Shown here: piece after piece, positions 30,501-51,845 of the stretch
How positions within the stretch are numbered: the first letter of the stretch is position 1
Layout: each line of letters starts with the position of its first letter
DNA from: Gammaproteobacteria bacterium
Lineage (GTDB): Bacteria; Pseudomonadota; Gammaproteobacteria; JAUZRS01
Direction of reading: 5' to 3'
Length of the DNA: 64,000 nucleotides
NCBI GenBank assembly: GCA_030949385.1
Contig: JAUZSP010000006.1
Location: 128,121-192,120, forward strand
Made by a program: the position numbers and the translations under genes
Notes under the pieces: generated by a model
The model's input: only the letters and a program-made list of their open reading frames with translations
Told to the model about the DNA's origin: nothing
Databases searched by the model: none

Positions 30501-30653
30501 GGTGATTCTTCCTAATGCGAAAAGGGATTCATCTTACCTGTGAACGATAAGGGATGAAAGTCGCGTGCGAATTAGGGTGGTGTTGCTGGGGGTGATGGCG
30601 CAAAATGCCGAGCCTTTTTGCGCAAACTGCCCCCTTGGTATTACGATACGATT

Positions 30654-32168
30654 ATGACTGACCGTTACATAAAAAAAATCCTCTCCGCTCGTGTGTACGA
30701 CGTGGCCAGCGAAAGTCCGCTGGAATACGCTCCCAACTTGTCGCGCAAGCTCTCCAATCGTGTGTTGTTAAAGCGTGAAGATCAGCAGCAGGTCTTCTCT
30801 TTCAAGCTGCGCGGCGCGTACAACAAAATGTACCAACTCAGCCAGCAGGGCGATTTGGTCGGAGTGATTGCCGCTTCGGCGGGCAACCACGCTCAAGGGG
30901 TGGCGCTGGCGGCGAAAAAGTTGGGGGTGAAGGCGATCATTGTCATGCCACGCACCACCCCTGCGATTAAGGTGGAGGCGGTCAAAGCGTTGGGAGCCAA
31001 GGCGATTTTGCACGGCGATGCTTACGACGATGCCTACGCTCACGCCCGTGAGCTGGAGCAGGAGAAGGGGTATCCTTTTATTCACCCTTACGACGATGAA
31101 GATGTGATTGCCGGTCAAGGCACGGTGGGGTTGGAGATCTGTCGTCAGCACCCCGACCGTGTGGATGCGCTGTTTGTCCCCATCGGTGGTGGCGGCTTGA
31201 TCGCGGGGGTGGCGGTGTTGATGAACTACCTGCGCCCTGAGGTGAAGATCATTGGTGTGGAGCCGGACGACGCCAACTCGATGCAGTTGGCGCTGGCGAA
31301 AAAACGCCGCGTGGTGCTGGATCAGGTGGGTATTTTTGCTGACGGTGTGGCGGTGAAACAGGCGGGCAAAGCGCCCTACGATCTCTGCAAAAAATACGTT
31401 GATGAGGTGATCACGGTTTCGGTGGATGAGATGTGCGCGGGCATTAAAGAGATCTTTAATGAGACGCGCACGGTGACCGAACCGGCGGGGGCGCTGGCGG
31501 TGGCGGGGCTGAAAAAATACGTTGAGCGTGAAGGCGTAACGGGCCAGACCTTGATCGCCATCAACAGCGGCGCGAACATTAATTTTGATCGATTGCGCCA
31601 TGTGGCAGAGCGTGCCGAGTTGGGTGAGCAGCGGGAGATGCTGTTGGCGGTGACCTTGGCAGAAAAAGCGGGCAGTTTTCGTACCTTTTGCCAAGCGTTA
31701 GGACGGCGGGGAGTGGTGACGGAGTTTAATTATCGTTACGGCGATGAGCAGCAGGCGAAAATTTACGCCGGAGTAAAAATCGCGGGTGAATCGGAGCGCG
31801 GTGAGCTGTTGGCGCATTTAACAGAGGCCGGTTATGAGGTGTTGGATTTGAGCGACAACGAAATGGCCAAAACCCACATTCGTTATATGGTGGGTGGTCG
31901 TGCGCAAATGGTTCGTGATGAGAGGCTGTTTCGCTTTGAATTTCCCGAACGTCCGGGTGCCTTACCGGCCTTTTTAAATCAGGTGGGCAAGGGCTGGAAC
32001 ATCAGCCTGTTTCATTATCGCAATCACGGCTCGGCTTTTGGACGGGTTCTGTGTGGCATTCAGGTGCCGGATCAAGAGTATGAGCGGTTTTTGAGTCATC
32101 TGGAAAAATTGGGTTTTGCGTATTGGAATGAAAGTGATAATCCGGCCTATCGGGCGTTTTTGTTGTAG
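30654..32168 (+). CDS. ilvA: Threonine ammonia-lyase, biosynthetic
   Basis: Encodes 504 aa. The PLP lysine lies in REDQQQVFSFKLRGAYNKM, and the phosphate-binding loop is GGGGLIAGVAV. Two C-terminal ACT-like regulatory domains (~325-504) would bind isoleucine and valine. It converts threonine to 2-oxobutanoate, the first committed step to isoleucine. I start at ATG 30654 (MTDRYIKKILSARVYDVA), the usual N-terminus. An upstream in-frame ATG adds an atypical stretch. Confidence 0.97.
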   Translation: MTDRYIKKILSARVYDVASESPLEYAPNLSRKLSNRVLLKREDQQQVFSFKLRGAYNKMYQLSQQGDLVGVIAASAGNHAQGVALAAKKLGVKAIIVMPRTTPAIKVEAVKALGAKAILHGDAYDDAYAHARELEQEKGYPFIHPYDDEDVIAGQGTVGLEICRQHPDRVDALFVPIGGGGLIAGVAVLMNYLRPEVKIIGVEPDDANSMQLALAKKRRVVLDQVGIFADGVAVKQAGKAPYDLCKKYVDEVITVSVDEMCAGIKEIFNETRTVTEPAGALAVAGLKKYVEREGVTGQTLIAINSGANINFDRLRHVAERAELGEQREMLLAVTLAEKAGSFRTFCQALGRRGVVTEFNYRYGDEQQAKIYAGVKIAGESERGELLAHLTEAGYEVLDLSDNEMAKTHIRYMVGGRAQMVRDERLFRFEFPERPGALPAFLNQVGKGWNISLFHYRNHGSAFGRVLCGIQVPDQEYERFLSHLEKLGFAYWNESDNPAYRAFLL

Positions 32169-32181
32169 GTTAAAATGGGTT

Positions 32182-32700
32182 ATGAAATACGATCCAAATA
32201 TTCATCACCGCCGTTCAGTTCGTTTGAAAGGATTTGATTATGCGTGCTGTGGGTTGTATTTCGTGACCATTTGCAGTCAGAATCGGTTGAATCTGTTTGA
32301 TGATATTTTAGACCATATAATGGTTTTGAATACTGCGGGAAAAATGCTTAATAAAATATGGCAGGGTATGCCAGATCAGCACAAAAATATTAGGCTGCAT
32401 GAGTACGTTGTTATGCCGAATCATTTTCACGCTATTATTGAAATTACATCCGTAGGGGCGGATTCTATATCCGCCCGCACTGGACTGGGAACCGTCGTTC
32501 AGACGTTTAAGCGTTTTACCACGGTGGAATACATAAAAAGGGTGAGGCAACATATTCTACCTGCCTTTGATGGAAAAATTTGGCAGCGAAATTATTGGGA
32601 GCATATTATTCGTAATGAAGATGAATCCACCCATCTTGCCCAATATATTATGGATAACCCTAGAAAATGGGCGTTGGATAAATTAAATAACGGTGTTTAG
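32182..32700 (+). CDS. REP-associated tyrosine transposase (RAYT), Y1_Tnp family
   Basis: Encodes 172 aa from ATG 32182. VVMPNHFHAIIEI holds the His-hydrophobic-His metal site of Y1 transposases, WQRNYWEHIIRNEDE is typical of RAYTs, and the catalytic tyrosine is probably in AQYIMDNPRKW. RAYTs cut and move REP palindromes. This gene contains a REP hairpin in frame (32451-32478, read as GADSISAR) and has another directly downstream, so it is embedded in its likely substrate. It was inserted between ilvA and fau. Confidence 0.88.
   Translation: MKYDPNIHHRRSVRLKGFDYACCGLYFVTICSQNRLNLFDDILDHIMVLNTAGKMLNKIWQGMPDQHKNIRLHEYVVMPNHFHAIIEITSVGADSISARTGLGTVVQTFKRFTTVEYIKRVRQHILPAFDGKIWQRNYWEHIIRNEDESTHLAQYIMDNPRKWALDKLNNGV
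32451..32478 (+). repeat. REP palindrome inside the RAYT coding sequence
   Basis: The sequence starts CGTAGGGGCGGAT and closes ATCCGCCC, a 7-bp stem with a short loop and a GTAGGGG head. It is read in frame as part of the RAYT protein. The same head and a near-identical stem occur inverted at 32708-32733. Confidence 0.8.
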
Positions 32701-32707
32701 GCATCAA

Positions 32708-32733
32708 GGGCGGATATGGAATCCGCCCCTACG
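32708..32733 (-). repeat. REP palindrome overlapping the fau stop codon
   Basis: Inverted copy of the REP unit (GGGCGGAT...ATCCGCCCCTACG). Its head, read on the minus strand as CGTAGGGGC, supplies the TAG stop of fau, so insertion may have set the current fau C-terminus. Confidence 0.8.
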
Positions 32734-33310
32734 CCGTAACCACACAATCTAAAGCCACATCCCAAGGCTCTGCTTCCAGAGTTTCAACCTGCTGGAATCC
32801 ATGAGCAAGGCCAACCAACAACGGTTTTTTACCCTGTTTATTATTCTGCTTAAATTCAAAGGTACGGTCGTAATAACCGCCGCCCATGCCGAGGCGATTG
32901 CCCTTGTTGTCAAAGGCCAGCAGCGGCACCAAAACCAAATCTAAATTTTCTGCTTTGATTAATTGTTCGTTGGTTACTATCGGCTCGGGAATGCGAAATT
33001 GATTGGCCTGCATTGGGCTGTTGTGCTGGTAAGGAGCAAAGTGCAGTTGGTGGTCATCGGTGAGAAGGGGCAGATAGAGGTTTTTGCCGAGTTTTTCGGC
33101 GTGTTGCAAAATAGCTGCGGTTTCGATCTCGCCGCGCACCGACCAGTAGGCAGCAATGTGCTGGCTGTTGATAAATTCGGCTCGCTGGAAGAGCTGCTTT
33201 TGAAGGGCTAAAGCAGAGTGCTGCTGCTGTGCGGGTGTGAGTTTTAGGCGACGTTGAATCATCTGCTGGCGCAGAGTTACGCGATTTGGTGGGTTTTTGG
33301 ATTGTTTCAT
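32729..33310 (-). CDS. fau: 5-formyltetrahydrofolate cyclo-ligase
   Basis: Encodes 193 aa (YgfA/Fau/MTHFS). N-terminal Lys/Arg-rich helix, VRGEIETAAIL, and the signature LLAFDNKGNRLGMGGGYYDRTF with the ATP/folate-binding glycines. It converts 5-formyl-THF to 5,10-methenyl-THF. It follows the 6S RNA gene directly, as in E. coli. Confidence 0.95.
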   Translation of the reverse strand: MKQSKNPPNRVTLRQQMIQRRLKLTPAQQQHSALALQKQLFQRAEFINSQHIAAYWSVRGEIETAAILQHAEKLGKNLYLPLLTDDHQLHFAPYQHNSPMQANQFRIPEPIVTNEQLIKAENLDLVLVPLLAFDNKGNRLGMGGGYYDRTFEFKQNNKQGKKPLLVGLAHGFQQVETLEAEPWDVALDCVVTA

Positions 33311-46371: not shown

Positions 46372-46457
46372 CGTAGGGGCGCACCTGTGTGTGCGCCCTG
46401 AATTGTATGCGGGGTTTGAGGGCTGACACATAGGTCAGCCCCTACGGTCACATAGGT
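46372..46457. repeat. Pair of inverted REP palindromes
   Basis: Unit 1 is GTAGGGGCGCAC...GTGCGCCC (about 46373-46399) and unit 2 is GGGCTGAC...GTCAGCCCCTACG (about 46430-46457). Both carry the GTAGGGG head, facing inward as in a BIME. A partial third copy of the second arm (ACATAGGTCAGCC) follows. Same head as the REPs around the RAYT at 32.2 kb. Located between gcvT and gcvH. Confidence 0.75.
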
Positions 46458-51407: not shown

Positions 51408-51845
51408 TCAATCAGAAACCTGTTTTACCCAACCGTGTTTTACCGGATTAAAGTGAACGTAATCCATGTGGGCTTGGTAGTCATTTTCATCTCGAATTAA
51501 GTGCTCCCAAAAACGGCGTTGCCATACGCCACGCTCTCCTCGTCTTATTCTGACATCCGAGCGTTGTTCTGTAGCGGGCAGTTGCTTGGAAAATTCCATT
51601 TTTATCAATCGCCAACGCAGAGAAAAATCTGCATCATCAGGTGGAAGCTCAATAATACAGTGCATGTGTTCTGGTAAAACGACCCAGCTGTGAATTAAAA
51701 AAGGATGGCGTTTTTTGACCGATTGAACCACCGCTCGTAACGAAGCGATGTGTTGGATGAGTAAGTTGTTATTGCGTCTGTGCAATAAATTAACGGTGAA
51801 AAAATAGGTGCCTCCAGAATGCCAAAGACGGCGATAGTTGGGCAT
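51408..51845 (-). CDS. REP-associated tyrosine transposase (RAYT)
   Basis: Encodes 145 aa from ATG 51845. WVVLPEHMHCIIELPP holds the His-x-His site, WQRRFWEHLIRDENDYQAHMDYVHFNPVKHGWV is the RAYT C-terminal signature with the probable catalytic tyrosine. It belongs to a different RAYT subgroup from the one at 32.2 kb. Family-B palindromes flank both sides (three on each), its likely substrate. Confidence 0.93.
   Translation of the reverse strand: MPNYRRLWHSGGTYFFTVNLLHRRNNNLLIQHIASLRAVVQSVKKRHPFLIHSWVVLPEHMHCIIELPPDDADFSLRWRLIKMEFSKQLPATEQRSDVRIRRGERGVWQRRFWEHLIRDENDYQAHMDYVHFNPVKHGWVKQVSD

Follow-up and report, generated by a model that had tools for sequence, protein, structure and literature searches.

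Genes and repeats at the locus

The stretch of DNA analysed here (64,000 nt; the window) belongs to a genome of 2.87 Mb, designated G000; the other genome of the genus, from a sister species, is designated G001. The locus of interest is compact, an enzyme gene, a REP inside it and a REP on its 3′ side all lying inside about 550 bp. Its features, with the upstream and downstream neighbours, are the following.

30618..32168, plus strand: upstream ORF, listed with 516 aa and read from its sequence as threonine dehydratase-like
32182..32700, plus strand: RAYT (TnpAREP) gene, 172 aa, recognised from the ORF list, motifs, profile and fold matches
32452..32476, plus strand: internal REP with GTAG head, perfect 8-bp stem and 5-nt loop, lying in codons 91-99 (which extend to 32478)
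32708..32732, minus strand: inverted 3′ REP with the minus-strand sequence GTAGGGGCGGATTCCATATCCGCCC, in the interval between RAYT and fau, two convergent genes
32729..33310, minus strand: fau-like ORF, named 5-formyltetrahydrofolate cyclo-ligase in the first-pass annotation

The upstream ORF stops 13 bp short of the RAYT start. The RAYT product displays the complete core of a Y1 HuH enzyme: the HuH motif is NHFH (residues 80-83), a WQ pair occupies residues 134-135 (from residue 134 the protein reads WQRNYWEHIIRN) and a catalytic-type tyrosine, Y155, lies within YIMDNP. The protein passes the Pfam Y1_Tnp cut-off (25.3 bits against 23). Its top NCBIfam match is REP_Tyr_transpos (NF047646), with 69.3 bits and an E-value of 3.1e-19; as the cut-off is 80, the curated name is suggested but not reached, a shortfall that we take as divergence of the RAYT subclass. 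Sequence search returned the E. coli TnpAREP (PDB 4er8) as the sole solved chain (E 6.6e-5). An AlphaFold2 model built from 49 sequences (mean pLDDT 89, pTM 0.84) matches the IS608 and ISDra2 transposases as well as 4er8 in the PDB (Foldseek E 6.3e-7 for the latter) and has the same fold as this E. coli enzyme of subclass 2.2. The residues named for GTAG recognition in the E. coli protein, W94, Q95, E100, H101 and R104 (PMC6006769), have counterparts with the same spacing in W134, Q135, E140, H141 and R144, and in both proteins the tyrosine follows the tryptophan by 21 residues (Y115 in E. coli; PMC8266576). As is typical of TnpAREP/RAYT genes, GTAG-headed REPs adjoin the gene and are dispersed in the genome. 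A distant second RAYT-like match to the protein (33% identity, E 4.5e-10) lies elsewhere in the window, at 51435-51806 on the minus strand (G000:C6:179555-179926).

A REP hairpin read in frame

The internal REP, GTAGGGGCGGATTCTATATCCGCCC, consists of GTAG followed by GGGCGGAT-TCTAT-ATCCGCCC, with all 8 stem positions paired. It is read in the frame GTA GGG GCG, so that residues V91 to R99 (VGADSISAR), between H83 and Y155, are encoded through it. The presence of a full REP translated within the RAYT protein, proposed in the first-pass annotation, is thereby confirmed. The same annotation expected homologues to reveal an extra segment. The linker between the motifs is indeed longer, 50 aa as compared to 43 in the nearest REP-free homologue (+7) and 47 in the paralogue (+3), but the peptide is VGADSISAR and not the SVGADSISARTGLG anticipated. 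The net difference to the nearest REP-free gene amounts to 7 codons, not 8 or 9; no empty allele of the window gene that would fix the exact ends of the insert was found among the homologues compared. Homologues with the same residues and no REP pattern in their DNA, which would have pointed to fortuitous similarity, were absent from the comparison: the homologues carry other REPs at this place, or none.

Coding DNA does contain fortuitous short GC-rich palindromes, and the hairpin might be one of these and no REP at all. We regard this as practically excluded, for the head, stem and loop fit a repeat family whose pattern is matched 31 times in the genome, which refutes the chance reading. The 21-nt hairpin pattern, searched with up to two mismatches, occurs twice in the window as opposed to 0.05 times expected. 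Folded as single-stranded DNA, the element reaches −9.6 kcal/mol (shuffle mean −2.27; none of 200 shuffles as good). When the REP codons were recoded at random with synonymous codons, the full stem survived in 124 of 20000 trials only; hence the hairpin is not forced by the protein sequence.

REP families in the window genome and the sister species

The REP pattern has 31 matches in G000, one double-foot element being counted on both strands, and 23 in G001; the reversed control pattern gave 1 and 0, respectively. Several REP subfamilies coexist in the genus. The CGGATTCYATATCCG type goes with the window RAYT, and REPs of a CGCACC or CAGACC type accompany a paralogous RAYT that is 50% identical. 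In G001 the paralogue (gene C260:1055-1531) is flanked on both sides, by REPs at C260:916-941 and 1771-1796; in G000 a REP of the CGCACC/CAGACC type follows the gene. No REP was found in the linker of the paralogue. Short inverted REP pairs are present elsewhere, for example at G000:C10:881/936.

The genomic context of the REPs was surveyed in G000 with a mechanical ORF picker run around the fetched sites, yielding 32 REP rows. In five of them, that at fau included, the overlap with the adjacent ORF consists of exactly the four bases of GTAG; supplying a stop codon is therefore a habit in this genome. Seven others overlap a mechanically picked ORF by more than four bases: four are within short ORFs (82-95 aa), another two lie at the extreme start of longer ORFs, and the last is the RAYT element, the only one of the 32 that is interior to an ORF longer than 100 aa.

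In the sister species the RAYT gene differs from that of the window at 13 of 519 positions, with no difference in the 26 bases of either the internal or the 3′ REP. Since the sister species carries the identical internal REP, the insertion predates the split of the two species and is not very recent. The suggestion, made beforehand, of a recent in-frame insertion altering the protein thus holds for the insertion, its frame and the altered protein, and fails on its age. At the divergence of the gene 0.65 changes would be expected in 26 bases, so that finding none is no evidence for constraint, the comparison lacking power.

The inverted REP behind the RAYT gene and the end of fau

The 3′ REP sits 8 nt after the RAYT stop codon and differs from the internal copy by one loop base. 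Over 26 nt, the two arms (32451-32476 and 32708-32733) show 96% complementarity; separated by 231 nt of gene sequence, they do not form the short-spaced inverted pair that defines a REPIN. The GTAG head contains the TAG stop codon of fau (32729-32731), in agreement with the first-pass annotation, which had the inverted copy supply it.

Relatives of fau are present in 52 of 56 genomes. The fau search returned 25 loci, and C-terminal ends were obtained for 22, those of the window and of 21 others. The window product finishes with ...WDVALDCVVTA, that is, 11 residues with the W counted, and by reading of these ends all 21 others reach at least 15 residues from the corresponding W. The window protein (32729-32767, minus strand) accordingly ends at least four residues earlier than the other 21 fau products of the class. 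Because all of these run longer, the tail of the fau product was probably clipped by the REP, whose head apparently supplies the stop. We read the 3′ REP as an ordinary intergenic copy that happens to terminate fau; it was not among the terminators listed by the terminator scan.

The linker loop and its apparent tolerance of repeats

In the alignment of RAYT proteins the linker past the HuH strand is variable, some proteins having a few residues there and others long repeats; the adjoining strand and helix are conserved. The model places residues 91-99 in a loop that joins the strand 81-88 to the helix 102-122, and the pLDDT of this block is about 73 compared to 89 overall. The region has been seen as a peripheral extension (PMC6006769), and the model agrees. 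Linkers of relatives contain VxVxNN repeats in a 342-aa frame (L165), the unit GEALANQDF three times (L307), a triplicated REP unit (L028) or NNTEGGE repeats (L316). It seems that repeats are generally accepted in this loop.

Recurrence of internal REPs among RAYT relatives

Searches with the window protein gave 181 parsed loci, from which 74 ORFs with both motifs and 72 that could be cut into segments were obtained. As the query (P0001) includes the REP-encoded peptide, the sample may lean slightly towards REP-bearing genes. A gene was scored positive if a GTAG-headed hairpin with a stem of at least 7 lay in the linker between the HuH and Y motifs, and control segments were taken from the same genes. 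Such a hairpin was detected in 43 of the 72 genes and not in the other 29. Adding 80 further regions brought the set to 119 complete genes, 56 positive and 63 negative (the new batch by itself: 13 positive linkers out of 47), while the control segments had a headed hairpin in 4 cases of 238. The sample covers the class and phylum of the window, the phyla of a Pleurocapsa and a Flavobacterium genome, and scattered others.

Among 44 genes with forward heads, 37 read the head in the VGA frame and 7 in the other open frame; the third places TAG in frame and cannot occur in an open gene. No probability is attached to this preference because the genes are related. The dinucleotide preceding the head is mixed (CC 14, TC 6, AT 6 and CT 3 out of 37), and a common target dinucleotide was rejected; REPs of the window's own genome show a weak C at −1 (16/30). 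The internal REP matches REPs in the flanks of its own gene at 90% identity or more in 13 of 39 genes, as against 27 of 1482 comparisons with the flanks of other genes, a tally that leaves out L010, L022, L066 and the second L158 gene. No such match was found in the examined flanks of the remaining 26; many inserts may therefore be old or of outside origin.

A tree of 68 genes (4 of the 72 left out), calculated from a short alignment with the linker excluded, requires at least 18 changes in REP presence, though many of its forks are open. With shuffled labels the figure was 20.9 changes, and 45 of 500 shuffles were as low as 18; the well supported branches force 7 changes. In two closely related genes, L162 and L168, REPs occupy the same place and have a common stem, with different loops and downstream linkers, which suggests turnover of the insert.

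These data bear on the idea that the internal REP is regulatory, either because TnpAREP binds its own gene or message and so limits its production or because a hairpin in the mRNA slows translation or decay. The message does fold strongly (−21.4 kcal/mol, a value equalled in 2 of 200 shuffles) and the REP is unchanged in the sister species. Against this, the many related genes devoid of a detectable headed hairpin include the paralogue from the same genome, REP-bearing genes are scattered over the tree, L164 has a REP pair with one decayed arm that its near relative L169 has kept, and the identity between the sister species gives, as seen above, no sign of constraint. Covariation as proof of hairpin function was set aside, since different stems may merely mirror different REP families. 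Overall, we consider a regulatory role very unlikely. Self-regulation had been put forward in the first-pass annotation; apart from the existence of the hairpin, the analysis yielded no evidence for it.

A gene pair differing by one REP pair

In the tree, the window gene and its orthologue group (support 99/90) with L064 and L067, two genes of one other genus that make up the sister clade of the window gene. L064 has no REP and L067 has one. L067 contains exactly 72 extra nt, in frame, at ATTTCTTCT|ACGTGC; this insert begins with GTAGGGGCACCCC, finishes with GGGATTGCCCCT and constitutes an inverted REP pair. Flank identity between the two genes is 95.6% (274 nt) and 93.3% (1455 nt). The empty gene has a REP at its 5′ edge, which the second arm of the insert matches with 96.9% identity over 32 nt. 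The junction falls at a CT common to target and insert, a position that fits the C|T cleavage described for the enzyme of E. coli (PMC8266576); it comes from one pair only and is not general, because CT precedes just 3 of the 37 forward heads. From the two sequences, gain and loss are indistinguishable.

Two further candidates were discarded because neither is a clean REP insertion: the difference consists of 12 degenerate-repeat codons in L314/L315 and of tandem repeats in L150/L307. No earlier report of a filled and empty RAYT pair was noticed in the literature searched, to which subscription papers mostly did not belong. We regard the L064/L067 pair as the most useful addition of the analysis: a gene pair differing by exactly one REP pair provides a unit that can be tested in vitro, along with a target site, for group 4.

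Another possibility is that the enzyme preferentially inserts REPs into its own RAYT gene, with an insertion bias as opposed to mere tolerance and a loop that keeps a linked REP template. The excess of linker hairpins over control segments of the same genes speaks for such a bias, as do the position of the RAYT REP, unique among the 32 rows of the window genome, the own-flank matches and the resemblance of the L067 insert to the REP at the gene's 5′ edge. However, a tolerant loop would show an equal excess if insertions elsewhere in genes were selected against, genomes do not allow insertions to be measured per unselected site, and other tandem repeats (those of L307 and L316, for instance) gather in the linker too, which indicates general tolerance. 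Preferential insertion of this kind is, in our estimate, quite improbable. Slightly less doubtful, and still unlikely, is the proposal that RAYTs of the window kind repeatedly deposit their own REP in one loop, the resident template keeping repeat and enzyme together through horizontal transfer; if this were true, L064/L067 would represent a caught event.

Interpretation and relation to described systems

The reading that we favour, with a probability of about 0.8, is that a mobile REP of the neighbouring type became fixed in a permissive loop of the TnpAREP gene, clear of the catalytic motifs. A REP of the type adjoining the gene would have landed in frame in the β3/αC loop, between the HuH and tyrosine motifs. 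REP mobility itself would have made the insertion, and we infer that, in the simplest case, this or a related TnpAREP acted on single-stranded DNA, that the change was a gain and that the protein has remained active. The insert would then have been inherited vertically by at least two species. Because the loop is free to vary in length and sequence, the protein gains a short peptide that does not extend into the catalytic core. The enzymes assayed in PMC8266576 belong to groups 2 and 3 only, and REP movement is still deduced and not watched.

REPs inserted in frame in RAYT genes were already described by Quentin et al. 2018 (PMC6006769) for subclass 2.4, which corresponds to RAYT group 4, and for some members of subclass 2.8. 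Judged by the features in Table 1 of that paper, the window RAYT is probably of the subclass 2.4 kind: NHFH fits NH[IFV]H, WQ is common to both, a tail domain is absent to judge from the length, long GTAG REPs adjoin the gene, and the in-frame REP lies between the HuH and Y motifs. Relatives are spread across several phyla, as described for the subclass. It differs in having D for N in the Y motif (YIMDNP versus YIxNNP) and in its length, 172 aa compared to a median of 194. The REPs of the E. coli TnpAREP have a bulged stem, and the literature covered describes no internal REP for it. Di Nocera et al. 2013 (PMC3733652), dealing with intragenic GTAG and CGTC REPs, reported that GTAG REPs often give a TAG stop to flanking ORFs, as in the case of fau, and occur in frame within genes; the genes named in the literature covered are mainly replication and repair genes, and RAYT genes are described as REP-flanked. 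Since both papers describe habits, the window locus is a new instance of a described habit.

Other REPs in the genome

The window contains a third REP, at 46373-46398 on the plus strand, of the GCGCACC...GTGTGCGC subfamily found on either side of the paralogous RAYT in G001. A mechanically picked ORF of 350 aa on the minus strand begins inside or just beyond it (L233). Elsewhere in G000, the same two-REP pair with the same spacing occurs at C3:519058-519210 and C3:534747-534899 (L228 and L229), approximately 15.7 kb apart. Within each pair the REPs differ, one being of the GGAATATTTTCC type on the plus strand and the other of the GCATTCCATATGC type on the minus strand; the arrangement suggests the duplication of some larger unit.
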